From positions 930,001 to 994,000 of the forward strand of contig OW568869.1 of the NCBI GenBank assembly GCA_938743325.2: 64,000 bases of DNA, in the 5' to 3' direction. Origin of the DNA: Pycnococcus provasolii (Eukaryota; Chlorophyta; Pseudoscourfieldiophyceae; Pseudoscourfieldiales; Pycnococcaceae). How positions within the stretch are numbered: position 1 is the first letter of the stretch; every line of letters starts with the position of its first letter. The position numbers and the translations under genes are program-made. The notes beneath the pieces were generated by a model. That model searched no databases and was not told the origin of the DNA. It saw only the letters and a program-made list of their open reading frames with translations. Positions 20,224-62,749 of this stretch are shown one piece after another.

Positions 20224-20308
20224 CTAAGATCGCTCATACAGTAATGAAGTGTACTTAACTCTCTATCCAGCGGTCGGCCAATCACACCATTCAGACCATT
20301 CACCGGTG
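20224..20308 (+). repeat. Stop-codon-associated repeat, copy A
   Basis: Starts CTAAGATCGCTCATACAG, then GTAATGAAGTGTACTT, a CAGCGGTCGG core and a tail of repeated CCATTCA units ending CACCGGTG. It begins 2 bp after the RVE8-like stop, in sense. Confidence 0.8.
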
Positions 20309-20457
20309 CCATGCATCTGACGAGGTGTTTTCGAAGGTTGTATGACTCCATCAGGGTTGAGTCATTTGACCTCAACTAATTTGTAGTAATAAATACGCGG
20401 CAGTTACATCCCAACAACACCGGTTTTTTTCTTTTCTTTTTCTTTTTTGCGTCATGC

Positions 20458-21981
20458 TCAAGTCATTGGCTTCGCCCTCGCGAGCTCCGCCCGGTACTTT
20501 GGCGGCACGCCCTGGATCTCGAGCTCGCCAAGCTTTCGTGACTTGATCAGGTCGAGGCGGCCCCTCTGCTTCGCGTACTCCTCTCGCATGCGAGCACCCT
20601 CCTCGAGGTGCTCCTTGCGCTCGGCAGCAGAGCGCTCCTCGTTCGCACGAATCTGGCTGAGAATTTCCTCCTTGTGGCGGCGACGCACCGCCATCTGCTG
20701 CTCCTTGATCATCGCCTCCTCCTCCTCGCGCTGGCGCTGAGCGTCGATGATACGCCTGAACTCCTCCTCCTCCTGAGCCGCCACGTCGGCAAGCTGCTTC
20801 ATCTTCACATTCTTCTGCTGCTCGCGTGCCTGCTTGAGGTCCCTGTTGATCGCCGCCTGGCGCTCCACCTCCGCACGCTCACGAGCGCGCCACTCCCGCT
20901 CGTACTGCTCCTGCGCCCTCATGGCGCGGATTTCGTCAAGCTCCGCCTGCTTATCAGCAGCCTTCTCCTGCTGAGCGCGCATGCGCGCCACCTCGAGCTC
21001 CTTCTCCTTTGCAATGCGCTCCTTCTCCTCCACCGCCGCCTGCTCCCTAAGGTCTCGCTGGCGAATGTACGCGGCGATGCGGTCGTCCTCCTCCTTCTCG
21101 AGCAGAGCAATCTGGTGCTTTCGCTCAATCTGCTCCTTGTTTGTCAGCGCAACCTCCGCGAGCAGCCGACGCCCAGCCTCCCTCTTCTCAATGATCTGCT
21201 GGATCTCCTCCTCCTTTATGCGCTCCACCTCCTTTATCACCTGTGCCGCCTCCTGCTCCTTCAACTCCTCCTGGCGCAACCTCTCCGCGGCACGCTCCTC
21301 AATCTGCTTCTTAAGCACGAGCGCGCCAGCCTTTCGCTCCTCTGCGCGGCGCTTCTCGCGCAGCTCGTAAGCCTCCATAGCCTTGATGCGTTCAACCTCC
21401 ATGAGCAGGTCGAGCCGAGCATCCTCCTCCAGCTGCTCTGCGATCATGTTCTTCTTCTCCTCCAGCTGCGCGTCTCGGATCGTCACGCACTTTGAGTAGA
21501 GCATCATCTGGTTCATCCGCTTCACGTCGTCGAGCTCCTCTTCAAGCAGCAGCGTCGCGCGGCTCTTCGTGTTGGCGTCACTCTCCTGCTTCTTCTGCTC
21601 CGTCTCCGTGGGCGGGTCGTTGCGCTTGCGCTCCTCCTCCGCCAAGAGCATGTTCTGCTTCTTCTGCGTGGCAAACTTACGCTCCTCCTCGAGCCTGGCG
21701 GAGTTCTGCGCCTTGATGGTTCGCACCTCCTCCGGGCTGAGGATGGTGGACGGTCCCTTCATGCGCTGGATGTCCGAGGCTGAGACGACGGTCTTGCCCG
21801 CGCTCGCCTTGGTTATGGAGGCTGTCGACTTGGTGACCACCTCCACCTTTGCATTGCGGCCGGTTTTTGTTGCGTTCGCGCCCGGCTTTGGGTTGCCGAA
21901 GAGCGTCTCGTCCACCTGCGACGTCTTGGATATCGTTCGGTACCCTCCCGAGCCTGTTCGCGAGGCTGTTCGCGTCGCCAT
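20458..21981 (-). CDS. CFAP45: Cilia- and flagella-associated protein 45
   Basis: A 507-aa protein from the ATG at 21981; the frame stays open upstream. After an 80-residue N-terminus nearly all of it is charged coiled coil. Family hallmarks are GPSTILSPEEVRTIKAQNSA near the start of the coil, MNQMMLYSKCVTIRDAQLEE, and the terminal KLGELEIQGVPPKYRAELAR. CFAP45 (CCDC19) is a microtubule inner protein in the B-tubule of doublet microtubules, so it implies motile cilia. The length is close to that of its homologues. The Glu/Lys/Arg-rich composition alone would not identify it, but the terminal motif does. Confidence 0.88.
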   Translation of the reverse strand: MATRTASRTGSGGYRTISKTSQVDETLFGNPKPGANATKTGRNAKVEVVTKSTASITKASAGKTVVSASDIQRMKGPSTILSPEEVRTIKAQNSARLEEERKFATQKKQNMLLAEEERKRNDPPTETEQKKQESDANTKSRATLLLEEELDDVKRMNQMMLYSKCVTIRDAQLEEKKNMIAEQLEEDARLDLLMEVERIKAMEAYELREKRRAEERKAGALVLKKQIEERAAERLRQEELKEQEAAQVIKEVERIKEEEIQQIIEKREAGRRLLAEVALTNKEQIERKHQIALLEKEEDDRIAAYIRQRDLREQAAVEEKERIAKEKELEVARMRAQQEKAADKQAELDEIRAMRAQEQYEREWRARERAEVERQAAINRDLKQAREQQKNVKMKQLADVAAQEEEEFRRIIDAQRQREEEEAMIKEQQMAVRRRHKEEILSQIRANEERSAAERKEHLEEGARMREEYAKQRGRLDLIKSRKLGELEIQGVPPKYRAELARAKPMT

Positions 21982-23264
21982 GGCTGCGGCCGGCGTTCGA
22001 GGAGTTGCGTACCCACTTGGCACGGGCCGGAGGGTGGGAGCGAGGTGGCGAGGGAGCAGCGGGACTCCAGGGGACTTTGGGACTTGGACTTGGGAGGGGA
22101 GGGGAGTAAGGTAAGGGGCGAGACGAGGTTGAACGAGCACAGGGACCAGGGGCACAGGTGCAGGGGAGGTGAGGTCTGAGCCTCTGAGGTGGGGTGGGCA
22201 AGAACAACGACGCAGAAGGACGACAGAAGGACGACGACGACCTGGTTCGGTTCGGTGGGGTTGGGTGGGCTTCTCTCGTCCCTCCCTAACTGTGAAGTTC
22301 CACGCCTAACCTCAACGCTGCGCGAGGGAGAGAGAAGCTCAGAAGCGTCTTCCCCTCGTCGCCTGCAATTCAGCCGGTTTGCCCGTTGCCCGTTCCCCCT
22401 CGCTCTCATCCCCTCGATGAGGCCATGCACTATGGACTATGGAGAACTGTGGTGGACTGTGGAGGCCTCGGTCGACGGTCAGACGGTCTCGGCCCATCCG
22501 CCCTGCCCGTGCAACCTACCGTACCGGTAGCAAAGACTGCAAACTGCAAAGGTCAAAGACAAAACGAAAGAAAGAAGCGTGGGCGCTCTCTTGGGAAACT
22601 CGCTCTGCTGAGCGAGTTAGCGAGTTTTTTTTTCTGGCCATGGACGTTCTTTTTCCGTTCTACGAGAGGAACCCCACTTCTTCCTGCCATAGTGCAAGCC
22701 TGCAGTTCCTAAAGGTATCCGTTGCCCTCTCTCTCTCTCTTTCTCTCTCTTGGCTGAAATGCCTGGCCTGAACTCTGAATGGTCTGAAGGCAGTAAATTC
22801 GCGAATCTTCCTGAATGAGAACCTCACACATGGCCCACACATGGCCCATGGACAATGGCGTGCTCCTACTAAATGGTATGGAGCATGAAGCATGCGTTTG
22901 TGACCAGGGACCGAAGAAGCGCGGAAGGCCGGCAAAAAAGAGAGCAGAAAAGAAGAGCGCGCGCCATCATGTCCGTTATGTAAGTTCTAAAGAGGCTGAT
23001 CCTCCAGGTCCTTCCGTTGTTTGTGATCCAGGAAGGCAGGAAGAAGAGGCCGGAAGCGAGGGTTTTGCCCCAGGGGTCTGCCCTCGGAAGGCGCCCCTTG
23101 GGAGTTCCCCTCCCCTCCCGTCCGCTCAAACACCAACCAGGTGTTCTCCCTCCGCAAGCCCGGTAAGGTTTTTAAGGTATCCTCTCGGCCTCTCCTCTCT
23201 CCCTCCCGCCTTCTCTCTCCAAACGAGGCCCTTCGTCTTTCGCAATCGGAAGCTCGCCTGAACC
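21982..23264. other. Long intergenic region, no supported gene
   Basis: The divergent spacer between CFAP45 and the ADF gene. It contains a CT microsatellite near 22728-22750 and pyrimidine-rich sequence before the ADF start. A plus-strand frame at about 22815-23261 includes an AT-hook-like KKRGRPAKK, but it is compositionally biased and I do not call it. Confidence 0.4.
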
Positions 23265-24225
23265 ATGGTGCGTCGTCTCGTCTCGTCTCGTCGTCGTGAG
23301 GAGCTCGGCCTGTGTCTGTGTGTCTGTGTGTCTGTGTGTCTGTGTTGCGTGTGTTGCGTGTGTGTGTGGTGGTCTTAAGGGTGTCTTGTGAGTGTGGTCT
23401 TGCGTGTGTTGATCAACCGCCAACGGGGCCTTGCACGGCCCTTTGGCCCTTTGGTGAAGTGTCCTCGCGGTGCGGCTCGGTGCTGTGGCTTGTTGCGCCC
23501 AGCGGCATGAGCTTGACGAGCTTGGCCGTGCTTGGACGCGTAATACCGGCCTTGCACGACAGTATTGCACGCCTGCTCAGGGGGTGGGAAGGTGTGGCGG
23601 GGCCATGCACGGGATCCAAAGAGAGGATTGTGGGTAACTTCCGAAACGTAACCCGTACGTTTCGCAACGAAGGGACGACACACCCCGCAGGTGGTGGGTG
23701 GTGTTGGCAGAAAGTGGGAACGAGACGACGGGATGGGCACGATCAAAAAGTGTCAAACACGACGCCGACTAACCAAACCAAACCAAACCAAACCTCAAAC
23801 AGGCGAACTCGGCATCTGGAGTTGCGGTGGACCAAACGTGCGTGCAGGAGTTCATGTCCCTGAAGACGAAGCGCACGTACAAGTTCCTGATATTCAAGGT
23901 GAACGACGACGGCAAGGAGATCGTTGTGGACGCACGGGGTGATAGAGATGGCAAATGGGAGCAATTGACGGAGCAGTTGCCAGAGCACGAGTGCCGCTAC
24001 GCCGTCTGGGATCACGACTTCACGAATAAGGAGGGCAGGCCAATGTCGAAGATCTTCTTCATTTTGTGGGTACCGGACACGGCAAAGGTGCGCTCGAAAA
24101 TGCTGTACGCGAGCTCGAAGGATAACTTCCGAACAATGCTCGACGGCATCAACTATGAGCTGCAGGCGACCGACGCGGACGAGATCGACTACGAGGTGAT
24201 CATCGACAGGTGCAAAGAAGCTTAA
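23265..24225 (+). CDS. ADF: Actin-depolymerising factor (ADF/cofilin), spliced
   Basis: Exon 1 is just the ATG (23265-23267). The intron is 23268-23802 (GTGCGT...CAG, 535 bp) and exon 2 is 23803-24225. The joined protein has 141 residues, starting M-ANSASGVAVDQTCVQEFM. ADF motifs are KRTYKFLIFKVND, a CRYAVWDHDF strand, the actin-binding helix SKIFFILWVPDTAKVRSKML and ASSKDNFRTMLDGI. It severs and depolymerises actin filaments. The N-terminal Ser that LIMK/CDPK-type kinases target is present at about position 4. An intron directly after the ATG is also typical of land-plant ADF genes. The intron is rich in GT and GTCTC repeats. Confidence 0.9.
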
Positions 24226-24385
24226 ACGGTCACGTAGCTGGGTTGTTCACCACAGCGTCGTCGATTTGTCGTGTGTCGTTCAGTGGTGGAGGCTTGAGGA
24301 AGCCGCTGGTTGGAGATTCAAAAAAAAAGATTTTATGCCATTTGTAAACCTGGTTTTGATCCTGACTTGACACAACGAACCTCGT

Positions 24386-29153: not shown

Positions 29154-29192
<39 letters not shown>

Positions 29193-35370: not shown

Positions 35371-35421
35371 GATTCGGGGAGGTTTGGGTTTCGGGTTTTC
35401 GAGGGGGGGGATTGCGCGTGT

Positions 35422-35504
35422 GCTGAATGGTGAAAGTGAACGGTGTGAATGGCCGGCCGTTGGACAGAGTAAAGTACACTTCATTACTGTATGAGGGATC
35501 TCAG
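35422..35504 (-). repeat. Stop-codon-associated repeat, copy B (supplies the stop)
   Basis: On the minus strand it begins CTGAGATCCCTCATACAG; its TGA (35503-35501) is the stop codon of the JmjC-like gene. It then runs through the GTAATGAAGTGTACTTTAC and TCCAACGG core into the CCATTCA-type tail. Confidence 0.85.
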
Positions 35505-37075
35505 ACTTTTACATTGCATGCCGAGAGCATCGCTTCTCTTAGCGCATCGCGGCCTTGCTTTCTAGCGGCGATGAATTTTTTCCTGTCCTTGACCGCATCG
35601 GCGAAGCTCGCTCGCTCCGGCCCGTAGCGCGGCTTGCCAGACTCGTGAATGACGGAACACCACCCGCCAGGTTCTACGCCGACGCTGCTGCTAGTGTTGC
35701 TTTTGCTGCCGCCGCTGCATGCCCAACCCAACCGTACGACTCCACGCTTCCCCTCACAGCTAGCCTCGAGAAGAGCCTGCTGCTCCAGTGAATATTCCAT
35801 GCGATCTGGAGGAGTCTCCACAACTGCCGCGCTGGGCAGCACAATTTTAGCGTTCTTCCTCAGGCACCTGAGTGACGCTGTGACACGCTCGCGCCACGCA
35901 CGTGGAACATTTTCGTCGTGATGCTGCGCCACGAGCGCTTCGCAAATTGCATCGGGAGCTGCGAATGTCGCGTCCTCACGCCCCCGCGCCGCCTCGCCAT
36001 CGCCGCCGCCGCCGCCGCCCTCGCTGTCTCCAAATATTGCGCGCAACACCGGATACACGATGGGGGGCTCCGCCCACGTGCGTGCTCTCGAGAGGAAATG
36101 CCAAGCCTCGTCCATGTGCGCGTGCAGAACGACTCGCTGCTCGCACATGCAGCAGTCCTGCTCGGTGACGACGTAGTGAGGTGCGTTCGGGGGACTCAAC
36201 AACGGCGCGCCACCAGCCGCGAGCGGCGCGACCATGATTATGGGAAGCTTGTCCGCGTCAGGCAATGCCCAGTCGGGTGTATCGAAGATGTCCAAGCTTG
36301 CCCACCTCCCGCTCTTGTTGCACTCCACGTCGTCGAAGATCATCGTGTACGCCTCACGTGGCACGAAGATGAACACCTTCACGACAACTGGCGAACCCTC
36401 CAGCCTTGTGTCTCGAATCACAGGCTCGACGAGTGGCCTTGCGCTGTCGCGCGCGGACACGTCCACAGGAAGGGCCACCTGCAGAGTCACCTCACCTCCG
36501 TCGTCGAGGTGCCACCACGTGACAGCGCCCGCTTGGCTGACCCGCGTCGCCATGTCGACGCGCGTTGCGAGCGGCGTCGCCGTGGCGTTCGCACCAGCCG
36601 CGTCACCGAAGAGCATCTCTGGAAGAGGCCAGTCAAGCAGCGCGGGAAGCAGCTTGTCGCCGTCGTCGTCGTCCCTGTGGAACGCCTGCAAGTTGACGCG
36701 TCCCGCGGGCGACGCGAGCGCCTCCGTGAAGCTTTCGCAGAACGTGACGTTATCGTCGTCGACGAGCGGCGTTCCCGGCGCGCCCCACCCTCCGAGCATG
36801 GCAAGCCTTTGTTTTTTGAATCCCCTATCGTTCGCAGTGACGTGCGCAAGTCCGTCTCTGCCCGCTGCGGCGTGCAGACGCGCGGCATACTTGGTTGGCA
36901 GCATGCACGGCGTTCCCGACGTGAGGTGGTGTGCGAGCACGTTCGCGTCGAGTTCTCCCGTCGTCGTTTCCGGGACGTGCGGCGCGAGCGTGGCCCTCCA
37001 CTTGTGCGACACCCTGTTTGCGTTCGGCACGCCCCACTGCTGCAGGAGCGTCTGCAGCGACTCGACGTGCGGCAT
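35501..37075 (-). CDS. JmjC/cupin-like putative Fe(II)/2-oxoglutarate oxygenase
   Basis: A protein of 524 residues. A probable facial triad is visible: His189 and Asp191 in AVTWWHLDDGGEVTLQVALP, and His300 in PLLSPPNAPHYVVTEQDCCM. The last resembles the PPGWWH-V motif of JmjC and cupin-8 proteins. Between them are beta-strand-like segments such as VVKVFIFVPREAYTMIF. The C-terminal 150 residues contain Gly and Ser/Asn low-complexity tracts. Substrate and localisation are unknown; histone demethylases usually carry reader domains, and none is seen. The coding frame runs directly into copy B of the repeat, which provides its stop. Confidence 0.5.
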   Translation of the reverse strand: MPHVESLQTLLQQWGVPNANRVSHKWRATLAPHVPETTTGELDANVLAHHLTSGTPCMLPTKYAARLHAAAGRDGLAHVTANDRGFKKQRLAMLGGWGAPGTPLVDDDNVTFCESFTEALASPAGRVNLQAFHRDDDDGDKLLPALLDWPLPEMLFGDAAGANATATPLATRVDMATRVSQAGAVTWWHLDDGGEVTLQVALPVDVSARDSARPLVEPVIRDTRLEGSPVVVKVFIFVPREAYTMIFDDVECNKSGRWASLDIFDTPDWALPDADKLPIIMVAPLAAGGAPLLSPPNAPHYVVTEQDCCMCEQRVVLHAHMDEAWHFLSRARTWAEPPIVYPVLRAIFGDSEGGGGGGDGEAARGREDATFAAPDAICEALVAQHHDENVPRAWRERVTASLRCLRKNAKIVLPSAAVVETPPDRMEYSLEQQALLEASCEGKRGVVRLGWACSGGSKSNTSSSVGVEPGGWCSVIHESGKPRYGPERASFADAVKDRKKFIAARKQGRDALREAMLSACNVKV

Positions 37076-37428: not shown

Positions 37429-40400
37429 ATGAGTGGCACGTGGTTGCACCAAGTGTGCTCGACGCACGCACTACCTGGAAGAAAACAACTCCCAGTGGCA
37501 GCTGTCGTATCTGATCGGGATCGCGCGAGGAGACACCGGCGTGGTTCCCTTCGCTCTCGTCAAGTGGGGGCGCAGCACAGGAACGGGTCATTAGCCAGGC
37601 TGCAACCGCGGGGAGCGCCGCCAAGACCCGCAGTATGGGCCGCCGCCGTCAAAACGGGAGACGAAGATGAGGGAAAGGCTCCCGCTGGTGACGAAGCCGC
37701 CACCAACGCGGAAGCAGGTGGGGATGGGGATGACGACGCAGAAGACGAGACCGAGCCACAGAAGACTCTCGAGGAACTCGAACAGGAACGCGAGAGGGCT
37801 GTCAAGCGTAAGATTGAGTCGATCGAGTTCAAGGATCAGTGTGAGGCGGACGCGCAGATGTTCGCGGAGCAAAGCCTTGCCGCACAGGAGGCTTACGACT
37901 TCGCAGACAGCGTGCTGAAGGCTGCGGAGCAGGCGTTGGAAAAGGCGGTGGAGGTGGAGGAGATCGCGAAGGCGGCTGTTGAGGAGGGCATGCCCGACGA
38001 CGCTCCTGAGGTGCAGGCGTTCGCCGCAGCAGCGAAGAGACTCGACGAGTTGCGCTCAGAGGTTGGCGCCGCGCAGCTGGCGTGCGACGACTGCGCCGAA
38101 TCGCTCGCCGAGGCGGAAAAGAAGACGAGCAACGCCATGCTCAAGGCTGAGCTTGCCGTCAGCCAGGAGGCGGCTGCGCTGAGGTCGTGCGACGAGCTGG
38201 ACAAGATCATCGACGACGTCACCAAGGTCGACGACAGCGAGGAAGGAGCGGGATCAGCTTCTGCCGCGGTGCCACCCGCGCTTGTGGAGGATGTGCTGAA
38301 GTCTGTCGACGGGGCGGACGGGGCGGCGTCGCCGGCACCAGCTCCCGCCGCGGAATCGGCAGCAACCGTGGCGGCACTTTCGTCGGCTGACGAGGCGCTT
38401 TCGTCCGCCGACCTCGCGGATATGCCGTCGTCAGAGAAGGAGGAGCAGGAGAAGAAGGAACCCGTGGTGCGTCGCACAGCCACGAGCAGCCAGTACATGG
38501 CTGCGCCGCTGATGAGTGGCAAGGGAGACACGGTGGAGAACGACCTTCAAAATCTGAAGCGATTCACGAAGAAGGTGCTGAAGAAGGCGGTGGTCGTGCT
38601 GATTGTTGCAGCCACTACCATCTTTGCGGGAATGACTGCGAGCAAGCGATTTGGATGGAGTTTGCCAAGCTTGCCAAGCACTGCCACGTCCACGGGCGTT
38701 GGCAGCCTCAAGGGGCTGGAGCGAGGCATCGCGTTCGTCGGCGAGTCGGCGAATAAGGTGACGCAGTACCTATCCACAGACACCGGCAAGGAGGGAGAGC
38801 ACGGGCACGACGACGGCGGGATTGTGGATGTGATCGTGCTGCTTGCCACGGCGTGCGTTGCCGTGCCGCTGATTCAAAGGGTTCCCGGGGGATCGCCAAT
38901 TCTCGGTTTCCTGATTGGTGGGGCTATCATCGGGCCGAATGGCGTTGGGATCATCAGCCACGTTAACGCGGTAAAGGAGCTCGCGGAATTTGGCGTGGTT
39001 TTCCTCCTATTCAACATTGGGCTCGAGCTGTCTCTCGAGCGCCTGCAGAGTATGGCAAAGTACGTCTTCGGGCTCGGCATGGTGCAGGTGTGCGTATCCA
39101 TCGCGCTCGTGTACGCGCTCATTCCAGTTCTTCTGCCCGCTAGTCTCATCGCATCCGCATCATCAACCGGCATCGTCATAGGAGGCGCGCTCGCACTCAG
39201 CTCCACCGCCGTGGCGATGCAGGTTCTTGGAGATCGCGGCGAGACGACGGAGCGCCACGGGCGAATCACATTCAGCGTTCTGCTGTTCCAGGATCTCGCC
39301 GTCGTCGTGCTGCTCATGCTCGTGCCGCTGCTTGCGCCGCAGGCACCGGGCGCCGCCGGTGGCAGCAATGCCATCGGCGAAGCCCTGGTGAAGGCTGGTG
39401 TGCGTGCCGTGTTGTGCATCACGGCAATCATTGCCGGCGGGCGCGTGCTGCTTCGCCCAATATTTAACCGCATGGCTGGTGGGAACACACCAGCGGAGCT
39501 CTTCGCAGCGCTCACGCTGCTCGTTGCCATCGGCACCTCAGCTATCACGCAGGCTGCTGGCCTGAGCATGGCGCTCGGCGCTTTCCTCGCGGGCCTGCTG
39601 ATTGCCGAGACGGAGTACGTCATGCAGGTTGAGAGCGACATTGCGCCGTTCCGCGGGCTTTTGCTCGGACTGTTCTTTATGACAGTGGGCATGGAGGTGC
39701 AGCCTGGCATTCTTGTGAATGACGGCTTGTGGGTGCTCGGCGGGCTCGCAATTCTGCTCGGGCTGAAGAGCTTGGTCATGATCGTGGGAGGCGCCCTGTT
39801 CGGCCTCAGTGTGTTCACCGGCTTGCGCGCTTCGATGTTCCTCGCTCCAGGCGGCGAGTTCGCGTTCGTTCTTCTCGGCGAGAGCGTGCGAAACGCCATC
39901 GTGTCGAAGAGCTTGGCTGAACACCTTTACCTCGTGGTCGCACTGTCGATGGCGCTGACGCCATGGCTGGCGGCTGCCGGGTCGATGATCTCCAAGCGAT
40001 TCGAAAAGAGCGACTCGAAGAAGTTCCAGGTGACCACGACGGACACGGATGATATGAAGGGCCACGTGATTCTTGCAGGATACGGCCGCGTGGGGCAGCT
40101 CATCGCACAGCTGCTCAAGGAGAAACTCATTCCTTTCGTCTGCCTCGAGCTGCGCCCCGAGCGCGTTGCCGAGGGCCGCGCGAGGGGCCATAATGTCTAC
40201 TTCGGCGACGCTGGATCGGAGCAGGTGCTTCATAGCGTGGGCGCGCACCGTGCGGCATGCGCCGTCGTCACGCTCGACACGGCGAGCGCCAACTACCGAA
40301 CGGTCTGGGCGCTGAAGAAAGGCTATCCGAATGTGAAGAGCTTCGTGCGCGCTTTTGACGTGCAGCATGGCCTTGTGTTAGAGAAGGCTGGTGCCACGGC

Positions 40401-40650
40401 TGTTGTTCCAGAGACGCTCGAGCCTAGCTTGCAGCTTGCTTCCGCAGTACTGACCGAGCTGAAGATGCCGTCGACAGAGGTTGTGACCACCGTCGATGAT
40501 TTCCGCCGTAACCACATGGAAGAGCTCATGACCCTTGCGATGTCCGGCGGGGGTGGCATGGGCTACAGCACGACGAACTCCCCGCCACCACCTAACCTCG
40601 AAGATGCACTTGAGGCGGTGGAAGTTACGATGAAGGGAAAAAAGTTGTGA
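37429..40650 (+). CDS. KEA: Plastid K+/H+ antiporter of the KEA1/2 type (CPA2)
   Basis: A protein of 1073 residues. A basic, transit-like N-terminus is followed by an acidic and Ala/Glu-rich coiled coil (about residues 100-300), as in the stromal domain of plant KEA1/KEA2. The Na+/H+ exchanger membrane domain spans about residues 455-865 (PILGFLIGGAIIGPNGVG, FGVVFLLFNIGLELSLERL and the core FSVLLFQDLAVV). A TrkA-N/RCK domain begins near residue 875 with the nucleotide-binding GHVILAGYGRVGQLIAQLL and ends about 1010. KEA1/2 work in the inner chloroplast envelope in K+ and pH balance. The stop TGA coincides with the start of copy C of the repeat. Confidence 0.9.
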   Translation: MSGTWLHQVCSTHALPGRKQLPVAAVVSDRDRARRHRRGSLRSRQVGAQHRNGSLARLQPRGAPPRPAVWAAAVKTGDEDEGKAPAGDEAATNAEAGGDGDDDAEDETEPQKTLEELEQERERAVKRKIESIEFKDQCEADAQMFAEQSLAAQEAYDFADSVLKAAEQALEKAVEVEEIAKAAVEEGMPDDAPEVQAFAAAAKRLDELRSEVGAAQLACDDCAESLAEAEKKTSNAMLKAELAVSQEAAALRSCDELDKIIDDVTKVDDSEEGAGSASAAVPPALVEDVLKSVDGADGAASPAPAPAAESAATVAALSSADEALSSADLADMPSSEKEEQEKKEPVVRRTATSSQYMAAPLMSGKGDTVENDLQNLKRFTKKVLKKAVVVLIVAATTIFAGMTASKRFGWSLPSLPSTATSTGVGSLKGLERGIAFVGESANKVTQYLSTDTGKEGEHGHDDGGIVDVIVLLATACVAVPLIQRVPGGSPILGFLIGGAIIGPNGVGIISHVNAVKELAEFGVVFLLFNIGLELSLERLQSMAKYVFGLGMVQVCVSIALVYALIPVLLPASLIASASSTGIVIGGALALSSTAVAMQVLGDRGETTERHGRITFSVLLFQDLAVVVLLMLVPLLAPQAPGAAGGSNAIGEALVKAGVRAVLCITAIIAGGRVLLRPIFNRMAGGNTPAELFAALTLLVAIGTSAITQAAGLSMALGAFLAGLLIAETEYVMQVESDIAPFRGLLLGLFFMTVGMEVQPGILVNDGLWVLGGLAILLGLKSLVMIVGGALFGLSVFTGLRASMFLAPGGEFAFVLLGESVRNAIVSKSLAEHLYLVVALSMALTPWLAAAGSMISKRFEKSDSKKFQVTTTDTDDMKGHVILAGYGRVGQLIAQLLKEKLIPFVCLELRPERVAEGRARGHNVYFGDAGSEQVLHSVGAHRAACAVVTLDTASANYRTVWALKKGYPNVKSFVRAFDVQHGLVLEKAGATAVVPETLEPSLQLASAVLTELKMPSTEVVTTVDDFRRNHMEELMTLAMSGGGGMGYSTTNSPPPPNLEDALEAVEVTMKGKKL

Positions 40651-40732
40651 TTGCTCATTCAGTAATTGATTGTCCTTTACTTCGTCCAACGGTCGTATAA
40701 GTCTTAAGACCATTCACTTCATGAAGCACACA
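40647..40732 (+). repeat. Stop-codon-associated repeat, copy C
   Basis: Reads GTGATTGCTCATTCAGTAAT from the KEA stop codon onward, then CCTTTACTTCGTCCAACGGT and a shortened ACCATTCACTTC tail. Diverged in the middle; sense to KEA. Confidence 0.75.
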
Positions 40733-43062: not shown

Positions 43063-43292
43063 GGAGCTCCTGGGTATAAGAAATGACATTTCGTGGGTAT
43101 AGCGATTCTGGACAAATTTGGTCGGGAGGGTTAGGTTAGGTTAGGGTTAGGGTTAGGGCTAGGGTTAGGTTTATAACAGTAAAATGGTCGAGGCCAAGTT
43201 AAACCCTAATCTGAAAGTTGTCTCGACCAAATGTCTCGACCAAAAGTTCGCTATACCCACGAAATGTCATTTCTTTTATACCCAGGAGCTCC
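43063..43292. mobile_element. MITE-like element with 43-bp terminal inverted repeats
   Basis: The left end is 43063-43105, starting GGAGCTCCTGGGTATAAGAA and ending GGGTATAGCGA. The right end, 43248-43292, is its reverse complement except for two extra T residues. The 140-bp interior has a telomere-like TTAGGG block (43128-43171), one reversed AACCCTAA (43201-43209) and a GTCTCGACC direct repeat (43220-43241). No coding sequence is present and no clear target-site duplication was found. It looks like a non-autonomous DNA element. Confidence 0.7.
43128..43171 (+). repeat. Telomere-like block inside the TIR element
   Basis: Mixed TTAGG and TTAGGG units with one GGGCTAGG variant. Confidence 0.85.
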
Positions 43293-45741: not shown

Positions 45742-45798
45742 CTACCGAACCACCAAAGTCCTTTGTACAAAGTAAAATGTTTTTTACCATTTTGTGGG

Positions 45799-45873
45799 GT
45801 GAATTTGAATGATGTGAATGGACGACCGTTGGACGAAGTAAAGTACATTCCATTACTGAATGAGCAATCTTAG
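45799..45873 (-). repeat. Stop-codon-associated repeat, copy D
   Basis: On the minus strand it reads CTAAGATTGCTCATTCAG, then GTAATGGAATGTACTTTAC, TTCGTCCAACGGTCGTCC and ATTCACATCATTC. It lies 44 bp after the DUF547 stop, in sense. Confidence 0.8.
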
Positions 45874-45916: not shown

Positions 45917-47092
45917 TTATAGCGCAAGTCCCACCGCAGCTGCCATTGCAACACTCAGTGCTCGGTATGAGCTCGCCGTGTCGGACTTCATGCCCTCCCA
46001 TGTACCAACAATGTTGAGATTCCAGTTGTAGTTCATGGAGTTCACCCTGGGCAGAGACTCGCGCATGAATGAGGCGATAGATGTGTCAATCATGTCCATG
46101 TACTTGGCAACCCAGCCGAGAAGCGATCCATCCGGCGAGTCTCTTGTGAAGTCGCCGGTGTACCAGTCGGACATGATCGGGTTCAGATACACGACGTTTT
46201 CCTCCACCTTGGCGTGAGCACCCTTGCTAGAACTGCTCAGCCACCGTATCGTGGCACTTTGCAGCTGCCCGTCGAGGCCAGGTTCGTTGTACGGTACCTG
46301 CATCAAATCTGGACACGACACGGACGCGCAGTTGACCGCGGCGTGTACTCGCGCATCCTGCCATCGTTTGCGGATCACCTCGTGCTCAACCTCGTCCAGC
46401 GTCACTTTTTGAGCGTTGATTTTCGCAAAGCGGATCTTCCAAACGGGACGCCAGAGGGTACCTATATCGCGTATTGATTTCACACCCGCGTTGCGCGTGA
46501 TGAGGTCGACCGTCCACGCATTGTACGCGTTAAGGCTGAGTGCGAGGGCGTCCATGCTTCCCAGCGTAGCAAAGTCCAAATCCCCAATCATCTCAAGGTA
46601 TTTGTCGAGCTTCTCCGACGGCCCGCGCTTGATGCTGGCGTACCGCACACCAACGAGCTCGACGCCATCGATGCTGGTGACGTTTGTGTGCTCACGGAGC
46701 ACGTCAGCCCACAGGCTGTGATCCACTTTGGAGCAGTTTGCAGTGCAGGGAGGCGGCAGCTTAACAGCACGGTTCTTAAAGACTGTGAAGTACCAGACAA
46801 GCGCGGTGATGCCGAAGGCGACTATGACGAGGCTGAGCACGACGGATACGACGACACAGACCTTGCACTTCGTCGAGGCGTTGTTCCAGCGTCGCCTGAG
46901 GCATCCGTTTTGCGGTATGATTGCTCTCTGGAAGGCGTGCACGGGAGCGGGCTCGACGTACTGGTCCGCCGTCTTACCGTTTTCTCCAGCGAACGGCCCG
47001 AGTTCGGCCGACGCCGTTTCGGACTCCGCGGAGCTGTTGACGCGTTCCCTGCCCTTCGCGTCCGTCAAGCCCACCTCGGACGGCGTGGCCAT
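45917..47092 (-). CDS. DUF547 domain protein with N-terminal membrane anchor
   Basis: A protein of 391 residues. A cytosolic N-terminus of about 75 residues is followed by one transmembrane helix (about 78-102, VVSVVLSLVIVAFGITALVW). The DUF547 domain spans about 120-330, with ALALSLNAYNAWTVDLITRN, WRPVWKIRFAKINAQKVTLD, and the Cys-containing VHAAVNCASVSCPDLMQVPY. The C-terminus has another hydrophobic patch (ALSVAMAAAVGLAL) that could be a GPI-type or tail signal. DUF547 has no firm molecular function; plant members have been linked to ternary-complex-factor/MIP1-type proteins. No leucine-zipper partner domain is seen. Confidence 0.82.
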   Translation of the reverse strand: MATPSEVGLTDAKGRERVNSSAESETASAELGPFAGENGKTADQYVEPAPVHAFQRAIIPQNGCLRRRWNNASTKCKVCVVVSVVLSLVIVAFGITALVWYFTVFKNRAVKLPPPCTANCSKVDHSLWADVLREHTNVTSIDGVELVGVRYASIKRGPSEKLDKYLEMIGDLDFATLGSMDALALSLNAYNAWTVDLITRNAGVKSIRDIGTLWRPVWKIRFAKINAQKVTLDEVEHEVIRKRWQDARVHAAVNCASVSCPDLMQVPYNEPGLDGQLQSATIRWLSSSSKGAHAKVEENVVYLNPIMSDWYTGDFTRDSPDGSLLGWVAKYMDMIDTSIASFMRESLPRVNSMNYNWNLNIVGTWEGMKSDTASSYRALSVAMAAAVGLAL

Positions 47093-47440
47093 GTCGTGGC
47101 CGTGTGTGCGTGCGTGAGCGGTAAGAAATAGTGGTTGTGGTGCGGAGGGCGGGTAATACAGTAAGTGCCTTACCCCGTGGGAGGTGGGAAGAAGAAGCCT
47201 ACAGGAAGGGGGGAGATAAGCCCAGGGGAGGGGTGCGTGGAGAAAGGGGAAAGAAAGGCAGGGAAGGGAAGGGAAGGGAAGGGAAGGGAAGGAGAGGCGC
47301 GTGTCTAGGAAGCCTACTGGCAGACGTGTGGAGATACCTGAGATCAGCAGGAGGAGGAGCGGAGGAGGAGTGCAGAGGAGGAGGGAAGGACGCAGAGCAT
47401 TAGGGCTAGGGTTAGGGCTAGGGTTAACGGGTTAGGGTTT
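47093..47440. promoter_or_regulatory. Purine-rich intergenic region with telomere-like block
   Basis: Upstream of the DUF547 gene. It contains a GGGAA pentamer tandem array (about 47256-47290), (A)GGAGG-rich sequence, and a telomere-like block with GGGCTAGG variants at 47400-47440, directly abutting copy E of the repeat. Confidence 0.5.
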
Positions 47441-47518
47441 CTGAATGGTGTGACGAATGGACGGACGACCGTTGGACCAAACTAAAGTGCAACTTCATTA
47501 CTGAATGAAGGACCTCAG
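47441..47518 (-). repeat. Stop-codon-associated repeat, copy E
   Basis: On the minus strand it reads CTGAGGTCCTTCATTCAG, GTAATGAAGTTGCACTTTAG, TTGGTCCAACGGTCGTCC and ends CACCATTCAG. It starts 3 bp after the AHA1 stop (TAA at 47524-47522), in sense. Confidence 0.85.
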
Positions 47519-47521: not shown

Positions 47522-48532
47522 TTACGCGCCGAAGCCCATGATTTGCCGCATGCGCTTCCAGTATCGCTCGTTCCAACCCTGCTCGACGACGTCAACGACA
47601 TTGTTGCCATACCTGTCCTCCTCGGGTATTCCAGTCTGCGTTAGCCTCATCACCGTGTTACCAGGACCATCGGGCTCGCTCAGCTCAATGCGCAGGTCGC
47701 TCCAGCACCCATCCTCCCAGTTGACGAAGCGCCACCTCTGCCGTATGAGTTTATTTTCCACGATCTCCTCGTTCACAGCCTCGACTTGCCCGTCGAACAT
47801 GCGGCATGTCGCTCCCACCTCGCGCGTGAGCTCCGCCCTCGACTGCGTAAATGTCTGCACACGACCCTCGTCGAAAAATGTGTTATAAATGTCGTTTGGA
47901 CGGCAGTAAAATTTCTCCGTCATCTTCACCGTACGTCCTTTCCGAGCAGGCTCCGGCGGCGGCTTGGACGCCGCGCTCTTCGCGGCGTCCGCCGAGGGGG
48001 CTGAACTGGGTGCCTTTTTCGGCGCGACCGCGCCGTCGGCGAACGGCCCTCCGTCTGCAAAATCCTTCACGAACTGCGCGAATAGCTTCTGAGCGACGGG
48101 AATTCCAGCCTTGTTTGTCGCGGTGCGCGCAACCTCGTCGTCGTCGCCACTTCCGTCGGGCAGCGCCTTGAGCTCAGCATCGTCGTCAGCGTTCTCGTCA
48201 GCGAGGTACGGGCAGTGCAGCTTGCCCGTTACCTTGTTGCCCTTCACGATCGCCTCGTAGCTCACCTTGACGTCGAGCTCGTACCCCGGTATGCGCTTTC
48301 CCTTGCGTGTGTTTAGGTACGCCTCCCCCGTGCACGAAGCCACGCCGCGCAGCGTGAGCGACTCGCATCCGTGCGCGCTGGCGTCGACGGAAACGTTCTC
48401 GAAGAGCTCGCCGAGCTTATCCTGACTCCACGGCAGGAGGTCCTTCTCGCTCCAGTGCCATCCGCGCACGTTCGTGCCGTCCTGTCGGTCCTCGACGATC
48501 CAGCGCTCGTCCGCCTCTCCGAGCTTCGCCAT
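47522..48532 (-). CDS. AHA1: Activator of Hsp90 ATPase (AHA1)
   Basis: A protein of 336 residues with both AHA1 domains. The N-terminal Hsp90-binding domain starts with NVRGWHWSEKDLLPWSQDKL and includes KGKRIPGYELDVKVSYE. After a Pro/Ala/Lys linker comes the C-terminal AHSA1/START-like domain (FYCRPNDIYNTFFDEGRVQT, RQRWRFVNWEDGCWSDLRIE, then VEQGWNERYWKRMRQIMGF). It stimulates Hsp90 ATP hydrolysis during client folding. The typical NxNNWHW motif appears as RGWHW. Start and end match the family. Copy E of the repeat begins immediately after the stop. Confidence 0.92.
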   Translation of the reverse strand: MAKLGEADERWIVEDRQDGTNVRGWHWSEKDLLPWSQDKLGELFENVSVDASAHGCESLTLRGVASCTGEAYLNTRKGKRIPGYELDVKVSYEAIVKGNKVTGKLHCPYLADENADDDAELKALPDGSGDDDEVARTATNKAGIPVAQKLFAQFVKDFADGGPFADGAVAPKKAPSSAPSADAAKSAASKPPPEPARKGRTVKMTEKFYCRPNDIYNTFFDEGRVQTFTQSRAELTREVGATCRMFDGQVEAVNEEIVENKLIRQRWRFVNWEDGCWSDLRIELSEPDGPGNTVMRLTQTGIPEEDRYGNNVVDVVEQGWNERYWKRMRQIMGFGA

Positions 48533-54760: not shown

Positions 54761-54856
54761 GCATTGATTAGTGACCAGCAGTAAAAGTCGACCCGTCGTG
54801 TGCGAGACCTCTGACTGTTTTTTTAAATGGAGTAATCGCACTTTCATTAAAATCTA

Positions 54857-56743: not shown

Positions 56744-56874
56744 CCGACCGTTGGACAAATTTTTTAACTTGTAGCTAGCTACCAATTTCCCGACCTTTTT
56801 GCTTATGTATTGTTGTGGAATGATTTTATGGGTATGTAATGTGCATTCCATTACACTGAATTGAGGGATGTCAG
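56744..56874 (-). repeat. Stop-codon-associated repeat, copy F (with internal insertion)
   Basis: On the minus strand it begins CTGACATCCCTCAATTCAG, GTGTAATGGAATG, is interrupted by about 60 bp of unrelated AT-rich sequence, and resumes at GTCCAACGGTCGG. It lies 107 bp after the Rubisco activase stop, in sense. Confidence 0.65.
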
Positions 56875-56884
56875 GTGAGACACG

Positions 56885-56940
56885 TGTACACACACACACT
56901 CTCTCTCTCTCTGACTCTCTGACTCTCTGACTCTCATTTC
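56885..56940 (+). repeat. CA/CT microsatellite
   Basis: (CA)n followed by (CT)n and three GACTCTCT units, in the 3' flank of the Rubisco activase gene. Confidence 0.85.
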
Positions 56941-56981
56941 CCACATCCCCCCCCTCAAATCAATCCCAAAGGTTTTTTTCT

Positions 56982-58223
56982 TTAAAAACCTCCCCCAACC
57001 AGGCTGGGAGATTGCTCAGGAACGCTCGAGCCATCGCTTCCAGCAAGCACGGCACCGTCGAGGTAGCTGTCGGCAAGCTGCACGCGCTTGATGTTGTCCT
57101 GCTCCTGCACGAGCATACTGCCGTACTGCATGAGCGTTTGCGAGTTCATCGACACCGTAGGGAACTGCACCGGGTTGCGGTTGTTCACGAGGAGCGCACC
57201 CATGCCCTCGATGCTCGTCGTGTCAATCCACTGACGGATGACGTCGTCGTACACGCGCGCGCGCAGAGCGCCGAAGAAGTCAATCGACTGTCCCGGGAAC
57301 TGGTCGACGAGCATCTCAATGTCTTGCCTCGTCACGTTGTCCTCCTTGAAGATGCCCAGCGCGACTCCGATGCGATCCTCGCGTGTCGGGTTCCAGTAGA
57401 ACTTCTCCATGCGTCCGTCACGGATCAGCGGCGCGTACAGCGTCGAGAAGTCGTTGCCCGTAGCCACGACGGGAACGCGCGGGATCTCCTCAACCTGGTA
57501 GTTGCCAGGCAGCTGAACGTTCGTCGGGTTGTCGGCGATGTTCATGAGCGTGGCGTTCACCATCTGGTTGTTGACAGTGTACTGCGTTGACCCGCCCATG
57601 CGACCTGCGCCGGCATCAAGGTCGTTGATGAAGAGCGAGCACATCTTGCCCTTCTTCACGACGTCCGAAGCCTCGCGGTAGCGCTGGCGAACGAGCTTCG
57701 CGGGTTCTCCGGCGTTGCCAGACTCGAGCTCTCCGGCGGACATGACGATGGGCGCAATGTCAAGCTTCTTGTAGGCGAGCGACGTCTGGAACGTCTTACC
57801 CTGTCCCTTGCCACCCCAGATGCCGAGGATAAGCGGCACCTTAATCTTCGGCAGCTCGAGGAAGTTCTTCGCCACGTGCAGCGTCAGCTTGTCGAGGAAC
57901 GATGGCGAGATGTAGAAGTCGTCAAGCATGTTGTCGAAGCTGCGCTGGCCCTGCGACTGGTAGTCCGTTGACGACATGATGGCGTTGTGGGTTCCCCCCT
58001 GTCCAAAACCCCCCTGGAACTTGGAATCCACCATGTCACGTCCACGTGCGATGTCCTGCTGATCGTCGGACACGTCCACGCCAGCGTCAAGTCCACGCCA
58101 GCGTCCACCGCTCTGGCTTCTCTGACCCGGGCCGGCCATGGCGACCACGGACAGCTTGCGCTGCGTCTTCGGCGTCGCCTTCGCTGCGGGGCGTGCACCC
58201 ACGGTTGATTTGGAGGAAAGCAT
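56982..58223 (-). CDS. RCA: Rubisco activase, nuclear-encoded
   Basis: A 413-aa precursor from the ATG at 58223. A Ser/Lys/Ala-rich transit peptide covers about residues 1-30. The AAA+ core has Walker [14 protein letters not shown], Walker B-like [16 protein letters not shown], sensor 1 [20 protein letters not shown] and the RCA-specific [20 protein letters not shown]. The C-terminus ([14 protein letters not shown]) has no redox Cys pair, so this is the short, beta-type form as in other green algae. It uses ATP to strip inhibitory sugar phosphates from Rubisco. Copy F of the repeat lies downstream. Confidence 0.96.
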
Positions 58224-58943
58224 CACTGTATAAGTCTGCAGGTTGTTTGGTTGGTTGTGGGTTTTGTTGGGAGCGTGAGTGCGTGTTGTGCTGTGCTGTG
58301 CAGTGCTGATTTGTGACGAGTGTGCACGCTGACACAGGTGTGGTGAGGCAAGACGGGCGGGCGCGTACCTGTAGGGAGAAGATGGGAGGAGTGAGGAGGT
58401 GCGTGTGTATGTCGTCCTGAGGGGCCGTTGCCGTGCCGTGTAGGCAGGGAAGGGAGGGGAGGGGGGGGGGCAGAGGGTGATTTATCCTTGTGTCCCCCTC
58501 CCTCCCCCCGGCTGTCCTAGTTGGCGAACCGTCGGGCGCTCTCACCAGCCGAGAGGTGGGATTGGATAAACCCCGAGGCAAACATGCGGTTATCAGAGAC
58601 ACATATCTCCATCTGAGCAGATGCAGAGGGGAAGAGGGGGGTCCTTCCAGACCACGCGAAGTCCCCATCGCCAGTTTGGGGGTTTCCCTTCATTCCAGAG
58701 ATTATTTTCTATTTGGGGGTTCGTTTTCCAGTCTCCTTCCAATCGGGTTGGCTCACGAGGAATTTTTTAGGTTCGAATCGCCGACCAAAGGCGACAATCT
58801 ACATCTGACCTCTACCCTTTTCCCATCGCCCCCCAAACACAACCAGAGAATCGTTCCCGACAACACCTCCCCTTCCCCTGCTTCCCTCCCCCTCCCGGCC
58901 TCTCCTCTCCAAGCACAGCACAACCATACTACAGCACTCTACT
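58224..58943. promoter_or_regulatory. Divergent intergenic region, RCA / secreted unknown
   Basis: No gene is seen. It contains C-rich and G-rich runs (for example about 58452-58470) and a TGTGCTGTGCTGTGCAGTGC stretch at about 58288-58307. A GGTTCGAATC word at 58770-58779 does not fold into a tRNA. Confidence 0.4.
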
Positions 58944-59522: not shown

Positions 59523-59669
59523 TCCTTGGTGTAGACTTCAAATTGTTTAACAACACGAACGCAAAGACATTTTTTTATGAAAAAACACACGCGCTCTCCA
59601 AAGTTTATTGTTTGTTTTTTTTTATTTACATCGCCTCTGAGAAGACTCCTCAAAAAAACAAAAAAAACA

Positions 59670-60965
59670 TCAAAACAAAGAATCAAACTCGCCTTGCTCA
59701 GGAGGAAGCGACGCGACGTGCTTCTTGCGTGCAGCCTTGTCCTTCACCTTATTCTCGTAGCGCATCGCATCAGCCTTTCTCTCCTCCGCACGAACGGCGT
59801 TGGGAGAGACGTACACCTCGTTCGCAAACAGCGTCGAGCCTCCAAACGAGCCTGAAAATACCTTGATGAGGTTCATAGACAGGCGCGGGCCCACCTCCAC
59901 GAGACCAGTGCCGTCAAGAGAGCCAGCCTTGGCAGTGAGAGGTTCTGTAATCTGGTAGTTGCGCATCCACACGCATCCGTCAGCCACCGAGAACGACGTG
60001 ACATGGTCCACGAAAGGTTTCATCTTGTGGTGCCCACGCGGCACGCCAAACACGTGCGTGAACATCTCCTTGAGAACCTGCAGGTGTGGCAGCTCCTCAA
60101 AGCTGCGAGAAAACGAAAGAATTGGGCGAGACCCACGCAGGTGGTTCCCCACGAGCTTCATCTCTTCCATCGTGTGCACGTTCGAGACGTGGAACTTGGC
60201 GCTTGGCCCGTGTGGACTCTTGGCAATCCAGAGGTATAAGTCCCTCTTCTTCTTCACCTCGAAGTAGCAGCAGCTGCTGCAACCCTTCAAGTCCGCAAGA
60301 TCGTTGATTCCTCGAAGGTCTTTCTTCGTGTCAAGCTTCGAGTCCTTCTTGCAGTGAGGCATGAGCGAAACGAAGTCCTCCATCAGATGTCGGAATCTGT
60401 ATCGTGAATTTGTATATATTTTTTGTTTGTGTGTGAGAGACGTGTTTTTTTTTGGCGTGAGACGTGCTCTACCACTTCAGAGTTTATTTATTTTGACGAC
60501 GCCACCCACGTCCTTTCAACAACGTTCAAGCGCCCTAACGCGTAACGCGCACAAAATTCGTTTCGGAAACTTGATTCGTTGTCACGGCAAAATACAACAG
60601 GCTGGAAACCAGCCCGTTTTGCTCATTTGACACGCATGAATATGGATATTAGTTTGAAATCGGTTTGTCGTCACCAACGTTGCTGCCATTTTGTGCGTGC
60701 GCTTGCGCTTGCTGGAAAAGAAACACCTCAGCAAAATGAGTCAAGCACAAGAAAGAAAAGATTCGTACCGATATGTCACGCCACGCGAGCAAAGCACGAG
60801 CACCTTCTCCTTGTTCCGGAACCTTGGCGCTGGTTCAGCCGTTGACGCTGGAGCACTTTTCCCTGCCGCATCCCCTCGAGCAGCACGCTTGACGTCATGA
60901 CTCTCGTCGTCGCCGCCGTCGCCGCCGTCGTCGCGCTGTTTGCGCGTGCGCTTCGTAGCCTTCAT
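59670..60965 (-). CDS. BRX1: Ribosome biogenesis protein BRX1, spliced
   Basis: Exon 1 is 60965-60769, the intron 60768-60397 (GTACGA...ACAG, 372 bp) and exon 2 60396-59670, giving 307 residues. The join reads CSRGVTYR-FRHLMEDF, restoring the start of the Brix domain. Family motifs are FRNKEKVLVLCSRG, DLYLWIAKSPHGPSAKFHV, GSRPILSFSRSFEELPHLQV, FVDHVTSFSV and NLIKVFSGSFGGSTL. The N-terminus is Lys/Arg/Asp-rich. BRX1 works with EBP2 in early 60S assembly in the nucleolus. The C-terminal tail is shorter than in animals. The intron sits inside a codon (phase 2). Confidence 0.93.
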
Positions 60966-61380
60966 CGCTGGCTGGCTGGCTGGCTGGCTGGGCAGGTGTG
61001 TTGTCTGTGGGAGCCGCCGCCGCTTTTGGGACAGGTCCACCTTTTGGTCTACCTTGGGGAGAGGCAGATTCGGGGAGAGGCGTGCGAAACAGGTGTGCAA
61101 AACCCCGAAACCCCGGCAAAAAGAGTGTTCGCATGGCGTGAAACCTCAACAACAGACAACACAGAGCGCTCCACCGTTGTACAACGACACTGCATCGCAT
61201 AACTTTAGACCGGTAAGTTAGTCCTATGTACAGGGAGGAAGGACGCTCACAACCCCACCCCACCACGACCACCACCTCGACCACCACCAACAGCACGAGG
61301 CCCACAGCAAACACTGCACTTGTTAGGCCCTTTTGTCTCACAGGGCCCCGCACCAGTCAGTAGAGAACTACCTTGCGGCC
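60966..61380. promoter_or_regulatory. Divergent intergenic region, BRX1 / STPG1-like
   Basis: No gene is seen. It contains four GGCT units (60970-60985) and Cys/Pro-rich frames without family signal. No telomere-like block occurs here, only ACCCCGAAACCCCGG. Confidence 0.4.
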
Positions 61381-62634
61381 ATGACGACGACGGGGAGTGC
61401 AGACAACATGGCGCCCACCGCAACGCCTGCGCTGTCGCCCATAGGAAGGCAGAAGGGTAAGACTGTAATTGGCACGCTCAAGCGAGGCGCACCGGCAGCC
61501 ACCCTGCGTGAGAACACGGGTGCAAAGTCCACGAGCTCCATTCCGACGAAGTACGAGACGGTGCTGAGCACGACGCCGGTGGAGCAGGACGCCTTTGGAA
61601 CACGAACGCAGCGCTTTTCACACGCGGAGAACGACCTTCCTGGGCCGGGCAAGTACTACAAGCCGCGAAAGGCGATGTTCGAGTACGACAACAGCCAAAG
61701 CAGTCAAGTTCACCCTTCCATCTCCAAGCGAGGCTTTGGAGGCTTCGCAAGCCGGTCGAACCGGCTTCCAAGACCGGCAGTCGGCTCCGGACCAGGTCCC
61801 ATGGCGTACAATCACATGGCCATCATACAGTCCAAAGCTCCTCGGCAGGAGCACAACAAGGCGATGACGTCGTCGTCGTTTGCTCAGCCACTCGATAACG
61901 TCGGGCCGCCGCTCATGCCGCTTTACGTCACCGACGCAGGCCCAGGGCCGGGCTCGTACGTCGGTGTCTCGAACGCAGTCTCCGTTGCCCCCGCGAGCGC
62001 GGCGGTGAGCGTGTTCGCGTCCACCTCTGACAGACTCGTGACGTCCAAGGATGCGCGAAGCGCATCAAAGTTACCAGGGCCGGGTCAATACGCGTCGTCA
62101 CGTGGCGTCGGCGACACAACACGGCGAGGGAACATGGCACCTGCACTAAAGGCGAACGCGGGTGGGCATAAGACTGTGTCGCTTGCAGCACCCTCGGTGA
62201 TTTACGGCGATGTCATGCCGCACATCACGCCGGGACCTGGTTCGTACGAGGTGGGGAGCTCATTCGAGGGCGACGTGGCGTTCCGCTCCTCCGTTGGCAC
62301 GCTTCTGTCACCGCGCTCCGCCAGCAGCATGTTTGCAGAGACGTCGACAGACCGTTTCGGCCGGCCAGCACCAAGCACGCCAAATTCCGCGGCTGCTTCC
62401 GCTTCCCGAGTTTACATGCCACCAGGTCCTGGGCAATACGAGGTTCTCGTTCATACGAGCACAAACATGCGACGCGGTGGTGCTGGCAGCGTGTTCAAGA
62501 GTGCATCATCGCGAGGTGCTGACGGCGGATTCGGTGGAGTATTTCGCCCACCGGGCCCTGCATTTTACTCGCCCAACTTTGCCGCGACGTCGAAGAAGTC
62601 GTTCCACCTCAACGGGAAGAAGCACTGGCTGTGA
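61381..62634 (+). CDS. STPG1-like SHIPPO-repeat protein
   Basis: A 417-aa protein from the first ATG at 61381. It has about seven Pro-Gly-Pro (STPG/SHIPPO) repeats: LPGPGKYY, GSGPGPMAY, AGPGPGSYV, LPGPGQYAS, TPGPGSYEV, PPGPGQYEV and RPPGPAFYS. The C-terminus KKSFHLNGKKHWL matches the end of STPG1. SHIPPO-repeat proteins line microtubules, often as inner or outer proteins of ciliary doublets. With CFAP45 and the RSP7-like protein, this supports a flagellate. The stop is followed after 16 bp by copy G of the repeat. Confidence 0.85.
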   Translation: MTTTGSADNMAPTATPALSPIGRQKGKTVIGTLKRGAPAATLRENTGAKSTSSIPTKYETVLSTTPVEQDAFGTRTQRFSHAENDLPGPGKYYKPRKAMFEYDNSQSSQVHPSISKRGFGGFASRSNRLPRPAVGSGPGPMAYNHMAIIQSKAPRQEHNKAMTSSSFAQPLDNVGPPLMPLYVTDAGPGPGSYVGVSNAVSVAPASAAVSVFASTSDRLVTSKDARSASKLPGPGQYASSRGVGDTTRRGNMAPALKANAGGHKTVSLAAPSVIYGDVMPHITPGPGSYEVGSSFEGDVAFRSSVGTLLSPRSASSMFAETSTDRFGRPAPSTPNSAAASASRVYMPPGPGQYEVLVHTSTNMRRGGAGSVFKSASSRGADGGFGGVFRPPGPAFYSPNFAATSKKSFHLNGKKHWL

Positions 62635-62650
62635 TTGGTGTGAAACAAAT

Positions 62651-62749
62651 CTGAGATCCCTCATTCAGTAATGAAGTTGCACTTTAGTTTGTCCTTGACG
62701 GTCGTCCATTCACACCATTCACTTTCACCATTCAGCCCATTCACCGGTG
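62651..62749 (+). repeat. Stop-codon-associated repeat, copy G
   Basis: The most complete copy: CTGAGATCCCTCATTCAG, GTAATGAAGTTGCACTTTAG, TTTGTCCTTGACGGTCGTCC, then four CCATTCA-type units and CACCGGTG. It lies 16 bp after the STPG1-like stop, in sense. Confidence 0.85.

Follow-up and report, generated by a model that had tools for sequence, protein, structure and literature searches.

Copies of the repeat at gene ends

Seven copies of a dispersed repeat, which we examine here as a putative mobile element, lie in the window, a 64,000-nucleotide (nt) stretch of contig C9 of the Pycnococcus provasolii genome (32,333,900 bases in 46 contigs; the published CCAP190/2 assembly is reported at 32.2 Mb, with 44 chromosomes and two organelles, PMC11130579). 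We searched the window with a profile made from 30 of the repeat's copies in the genome, and six of the seven copies matched it at E 1.1e-13 or better; the copy at 56744-56874 is diverged, interrupted by extra sequence and gave a weak match in two pieces. All the copies claimed by the first-pass annotation were present, each downstream of a sense gene and with one end, hereafter the near end, towards the stop codon (Table 1). The statement that they start 0-107 bp after the stop held for five of them; in the other two (35504, minus strand, and 40645, plus strand) the stop lies inside the element. Pfam backed the RVE, KEA-type exchanger, DUF547, AHA1, RCA and SHIPPO-repeat (STPG1-like) identities given to six hosts, and for the protein called JmjC-like Pfam gave nothing at E 0.001. 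The Rubisco activase (RCA) of the window shares 99% identity with proteins of Pseudoscourfieldia marina and Pycnococcus provasolii. That the hosts encode unrelated proteins rules out gene duplication as the source of the copies, as had been argued. The orientation argument (seven of seven in sense, about 1 in 128) is weaker than claimed because between convergent genes either orientation is sense to one gene; the claim is carried by how closely the copies sit to the stop, by the copies in tandem intervals and by the absence of copies from divergent regions.

Table 1. Copies of the element in the window and the genes that they follow; distances run from the stop end to the element start
Feature	Position	Strand	Distance (nt)	Remarks
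Copy 1	20224..20356	+	2	near end 20224; profile E 5e-16; extent from three short matches to L035
Host of copy 1, RVE6/8-like gene	18977-20221	+		TAG 20219-20221
Copy 2	35419..35504	-	-4	near end 35504; profile E 1.4e-24
Host of copy 2	35501-37075	-		stop is the element's own TGA, 35501-35503
Copy 3	40645..40717	+	-6	profile E 1.1e-13
Host of copy 3, KEA-like gene	37429-40650	+		stop TGA 40648-40650, inside the element's first six aligned bases
Copy 4	45796..45873	-	43	near end 45873; profile E 5.6e-25
Host of copy 4, DUF547 gene	45917-47092	-
Copy 5	47418..47518	-	3	near end 47518; profile E 1.4e-19
Host of copy 5, AHA1 gene	47522-48532	-
Copy 6	56744..56874	-	107	split, near end ~56874; profile pieces E 0.1 and 0.22; outside the 50-copy count
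Host of copy 6, RCA gene	56982-58226	-
Copy 7	62651..62849	+	16	near end 62651; profile E 5.1e-28; ~199 nt of element align to L035
Host of copy 7, SHIPPO/STPG1-like gene	61333-62634	+

The repeat is not confined to the window. A 23-base near-end pattern (up to 3 mismatches) occurs 457 times in the genome, 233 and 224 times on the two strands, and its reversed pattern 0 and 0 times; a 14-base core (up to 1 mismatch) occurs 155 and 147 times, and its reversed pattern 9 and 6 times. The best 40 scored of 426 candidates share 93-98% identity over about 180-191 nt, and the family has therefore spread recently. One exact element pattern searched in each set gave no match in viral contigs and none in bacterial and archaeal genomes.

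We sampled copies by sequence, ignoring gene context, at 28 exact-core loci and 12 high-identity loci. Profile matches with E < 1e-9 in these loci and in the window, including extra copies found there, formed a 50-copy set from which the weaker L024:1632, L019:8759, a nested fragment in L029 and window copy 56744 were left out, together with two matches with E > 1 in L028 and L034. Genes were called with a simple, intron-blind codon-usage caller; the sequence read is ~1% of the genome, and our statements on anchoring cover 58 of ~457 copies. A called sense gene lies near the element start in 47 of the 50 copies, and the start falls between -21 and +60 nt of the sense stop in 46 of them (43 between -21 and +30 nt). 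The sole called gene beyond this range is that of the L022 minus copy, at 76 nt; no gene was called for L012, L033 and L006, and the call for the L003 minus copy is weak. If position and orientation were random, the narrower and wider ranges would hold 2.4% and 4.5% of noncoding placements, and 1.2% and 1.8% of placements anywhere. Eleven further loci gave eight near ends, all of them between -4 and +55 nt relative to a stop (the gene call at C9 is weak), and in the other three the near end was not found in the piece examined. The genome-wide survey of orientation and stop distance that had been proposed was run on this sample, and neither random orientation nor a far-from-stop pattern was seen in it.

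When the intervals between genes in the window and twenty 10-kb loci were sorted by type, an element was found in 17 of the 34 convergent intervals, in 10 of the 32 tandem ones and in none of the 38 divergent ones. The two non-zero fractions are inflated because all twenty loci were picked for a core copy, with gene context unpicked. At L003 and L017 each gene of a convergent pair has its own copy, the two copies facing each other. At L029:701-1045 a young copy stands just ahead of an older fragment of the same element, as if the gene end had been struck twice.

Element ends, target-site duplications and stop codons

Near ends are of the type CTRAGATCSCTCATTCA, and the far end is their inverted relative (...GATCCTAG or close to it), carrying the near-end motif in inverted form. 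A 27-base palindromic far end with the inverted motif occurs eight times in the genome, with none for the control; in L036 and L004 the far end is reduced to about 8 nt of the inverted motif. Measured on the L035 scale, the position at which the sequence ceases varies between 55 and 945 nt among 49 copies, with the near end fixed; L006 was unaligned, and divergence may shorten the values for old copies. Counts fall with distance from the near end, from 457 near ends through 100 matches to the next stretch, 43 further along and 23 for the last 263 nt to 8 far ends, a series that is only indicative because the queries differ in length and method.

Both ends could be read in seven copies, the shortest 130 nt and the longest about 1 kb, and all seven are flanked by an 8-bp target-site duplication. 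It is exact in L034 (981 nt), L004 (130 nt), C24, C33 and C35, and matches at 7 of 8 positions in L036 (361 nt) and C29. For L034, L004 and L036 no flank borrowed from other copies equalled the duplication in ~100 draws each, and the seven duplications share no common motif, as judged by eye. Apart from L034, L004 and L036, the 50-copy set showed neither far end nor duplication (47 copies), including the five copies at the top of the list of best-scored copies (L029-L033). Taken together, inverted ends and a duplication of constant length, 8 bp, are the mark of transposon-like integration.

The outermost bases of the element read C-T(G/A)A, hereafter C-TRA, and in 11 copies the called gene takes its stop from this triplet: eight of the 50-copy set (L029, L038, L040, L027, L017, L039, L035 and the window copy at 35504) and three at later loci (C33, with TAG, C35 and C9, where the gene call is weak). 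The L003 minus copy is ambiguous in this respect, and the first part of the near end is missing from the L015 minus copy. In the L003 plus copy and the KEA-like gene of the window the stop lies at a shifted place inside the first six element bases. At L037 the next frame is read, to a TAA at +21, and no third-frame readings were found. Among homologues, P0242, which is 58% identical to the host of copy 2, is two residues shorter at the C-terminus, and the remaining distant homologues in the alignment terminate no more than about ten residues away. For the PIF1-like gene of L027, P0122 (37%) stops at the same column and P0141 and P0143 extend further. At the complete copy C33 the empty-site reading and the filled site give an identical C-terminus (...LLGV*); at the complete copy C35 the filled-site protein is 14 residues shorter at its end than the empty-site reading. 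Exact recognition of the stop by TGA/TAA pairing suited the in-frame copies and was dropped because the positions of the complete copies spread from ~44 nt ahead of the original stop to 55 nt past it.

Weighing the explanations

We consider it rather probable that the repeat is a Pycnococcus family of non-autonomous inverted-repeat mobile elements that insert directionally at gene 3' ends, near end stopward. The suggestion of the first-pass annotation that a small element inserts at stop codons finds good support in the inverted ends, the 8-bp duplications, the highly identical copies at unrelated genes, the stop anchoring and the readable empty sites. Several points weigh against this reading. 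No autonomous element with these ends was found in hAT, KDZ, MULE and RVT_1 searches, with ~1% of the genome read, and the sample comprises the 58 copies mentioned above. Clean complete copies number seven only, and L009 has a far end with a repeated flank that does not adjoin the near end. L035 and L039 extend to position 945 with no far end, and six far-half matches (C5, C20:657735, C34, C11, C23 and C24:487354) have no listed near end, so that copies devoid of a near end may exist. Moreover, far ends may have been lost by later deletion and not by abortion at insertion, truncation from a fixed end is typical of LINEs (long interspersed nuclear elements), and selection may be part of the cause of the frame bias.

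The main rival, which we judge unlikely though worth weighing at length, is a retroelement of the LINE or SINE (short interspersed nuclear element) type lying antisense to its host. The 3' end of its RNA (...GAUCUCAG) would be the near end, priming would occur at a stop-proximal nick, and 5' truncation would give the variable far ends. One fixed and one variable end, with counts dropping away from the former, fit this explanation, as does a weak hairpin near the fixed end when the element is folded as the proposed RNA. Complete copies with inverted ends and a constant 8-bp duplication do not fit it. Truncated LINE copies usually carry a duplication; here 47 of the 50 copies have none, and variable-length duplications on truncated copies were not seen. 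A LINE with a known partner was our initial reading, drawn from the polar truncation; it lost ground when the near end was found in none of the five reverse transcriptase (RT) loci that were retrieved from among 37 RVT_1 matches, and the 8-bp duplications then shifted our preference to an inverted-repeat element.

The five RT loci are DIRS-, Gypsy/Copia- and LINE-like, as judged by eye from their translations. Thirteen of the 37 RVT_1 matches lie in 2160-aa open frames (for example C5:31431, C6:412946 and C41:150938), which suggests a recently active retrotransposon. The RVT_1 match at C5:909982-912048 lies ~1.2 kb from a far-half element match on the same strand, and L045:1959-3941 (minus strand) holds a 660-aa frame, by eye a LINE-like endonuclease plus reverse transcriptase, that adjoins a frame resembling Rubisco activase. 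DNA transposons were not borne out as partners either: the hAT search gave two weak matches, the KDZ search gave none and its control was silent too, and the MULE search gave 18 matches, the one inspected being devoid of these element ends. Four MULE matches (C6:968533, C8:472659, C13:258723 and C18:308439) have equal scores and 765-aa frames, and the inverted arms of the C8 copy, 67 nt long, match perfectly. The window holds further repeats. A 204-nt stretch at 43075-43278, with 31-nt arms that are 97% complementary, is perhaps another small inverted-repeat element, and interstitial telomere-like repeats occupy 63635-63797, with AATTAGGGTTAC/AATTAGGGTTAA units followed by GGTTAGGG units.

It is improbable that an untargeted transposon reached this distribution by selection alone, with copies persisting only where they are harmless, that is, at gene 3' ends. 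The genome is gene-dense, about 31% being noncoding by our caller, and the in-frame bias (11 C-TRA stops, one next-frame reading and none in the third frame) is as selection would also give. Nevertheless, no copy occupies any of the 38 divergent regions, although these are the longest, with a median of 661 nt. Uniform insertion in 3'-side intervals would leave just 4.7% of near ends no further than 30 nt from a stop (20% in convergent intervals only), and the copies in tandem intervals face the stop of the upstream gene. Selection surely filters frames and positions; on its own it does not explain the empty divergent intervals and the near ends within a few nt of stops.

We give very little credence to a host 3'-end regulatory module for termination, polyadenylation or mRNA stability that was spread by selection, whether mobile or not. 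Sense orientation and gene-end position would suit such a module; the transposon ends and duplications would not. Three RNA folds were near the shuffled mean (z -1.18, 0.24 and -0.82), and six element loci gave no Rfam match at the gathering score, two sub-threshold matches in L012 falling away from the element. The near end is not extra conserved, its mean pairwise difference being 0.054 over the first 19 nt as compared with 0.033-0.133 in the interior (17 long copies). Furthermore, 65 of 103 well-called gene ends, namely the ones for which sufficient sequence follows the gene, are element-free within 200 nt, although the sampling favoured loci that hold an element. After the stops of these 65 genes TGTAA occurs in 16 (4.3 expected), and none was seen in the near-end sequences read. 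The first-pass proposal of a termination, polyadenylation or stability cassette found no support in the folds, Rfam or near-end conservation, which leaves such a role possible but without backing. Finally, a Helitron is ruled out by the inverted ends and target-site duplication of the complete copies.

Proposed insertion mechanism and known systems

One-sided loss in the youngest copies, the lack of a duplication when the element is truncated and the single orientation point to an ordered reaction, and the ends and duplications favour DNA rather than RNA as the template. In the model that we propose for the inverted-repeat element, the near end would be joined first to gene-side DNA and the element would then be copied away from the gene. 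If copying were completed, the far end would be joined with an 8-bp stagger, producing the duplication; if it were aborted, a far-end-truncated copy with no duplication would result. Where the near end landed in the right frame, its C-TRA would become the stop and the protein would end at or near its former C-terminus. We infer near-end-first copying by an enzyme that would act in trans, and targeting would depend on the condition of gene ends (chromatin that is open, or a termination complex) and not on DNA sequence. A more specific version is tentative: a transposon family may be guided to transcription-unit ends by the termination or 3'-processing machinery and use near-end-first, target-primed copying, in which case even aborted events would leave a gene end that still works and brings its own stop codon.

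Among known systems, non-autonomous inverted-repeat DNA transposons, including miniature inverted-repeat transposable elements (MITEs), share with this element the inverted ends, the constant 8-bp duplication, the lack of a long coding frame and recent multiplication. In contrast to MITEs, it lies almost exclusively one way round at gene 3' ends, and 47 of the 50 copies are single-ended. Duplications of 8 bp are found in several transposon superfamilies. LINEs and SINEs show a fixed end and polar truncation; the element differs from them in its inverted ends, in a duplication restricted to complete copies and in a tailless fixed end. Tn7 inserts directionally at attTn7, just past a stop codon, and recognises glmS alone, by sequence, whereas this element is found at many unrelated genes, with no shared motif in its duplications. 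Known targeted transposons aim mostly at promoters, tRNA genes, rDNA and telomeres, and our search of the open-licence literature recognised no stop-codon-anchored transposon.

In one-ended transposition of IS801/IS91 a single event likewise leaves a fixed end and a variable other end (PMC3189936). IS91-type elements are bacterial, the fragments described end at set tetranucleotides, and most of the genomic ones are ascribed there to rearrangement (PMC3189936). No enzyme of this type came to light in our analysis, in which none was looked for. The nearest published idea is the introner (PMC9860276). Introners are introns derived from transposable elements and known from the picoalga M. pusilla; 49 of 130 assessable families have target-site duplications and 72 of 177 have inverted repeats (PMC9860276). 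They are non-autonomous, proliferate within genes and become tolerable through a signal of gene structure (PMC9860276), as is proposed for the element described here. They lie in introns and supply or recruit splice sites (PMC9860276), whereas the element described here is placed at stop codons, with the stop itself sometimes coming from it; its signal would be the stop codon and its place the gene end. We rejected an introner as such, judging by position, since 46 of the 50 copies are at stop codons and not placed as introns. A stop-supplying transposon guided to gene ends could possibly be the 3'-end counterpart of introners, a parallel that we offer with reserve. An alternate haplotype of the P. 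provasolii assembly is deposited (PMC11130579), and proteins from other Pycnococcus and Pseudoscourfieldia assemblies are publicly available.

If our reading is true, a family fixed to stop codons would represent a different way of living in a gene-dense genome, and the C-termini or 3' untranslated regions of several hundred genes would have been reshaped by it. It would also provide a natural probe for how gene ends are marked.

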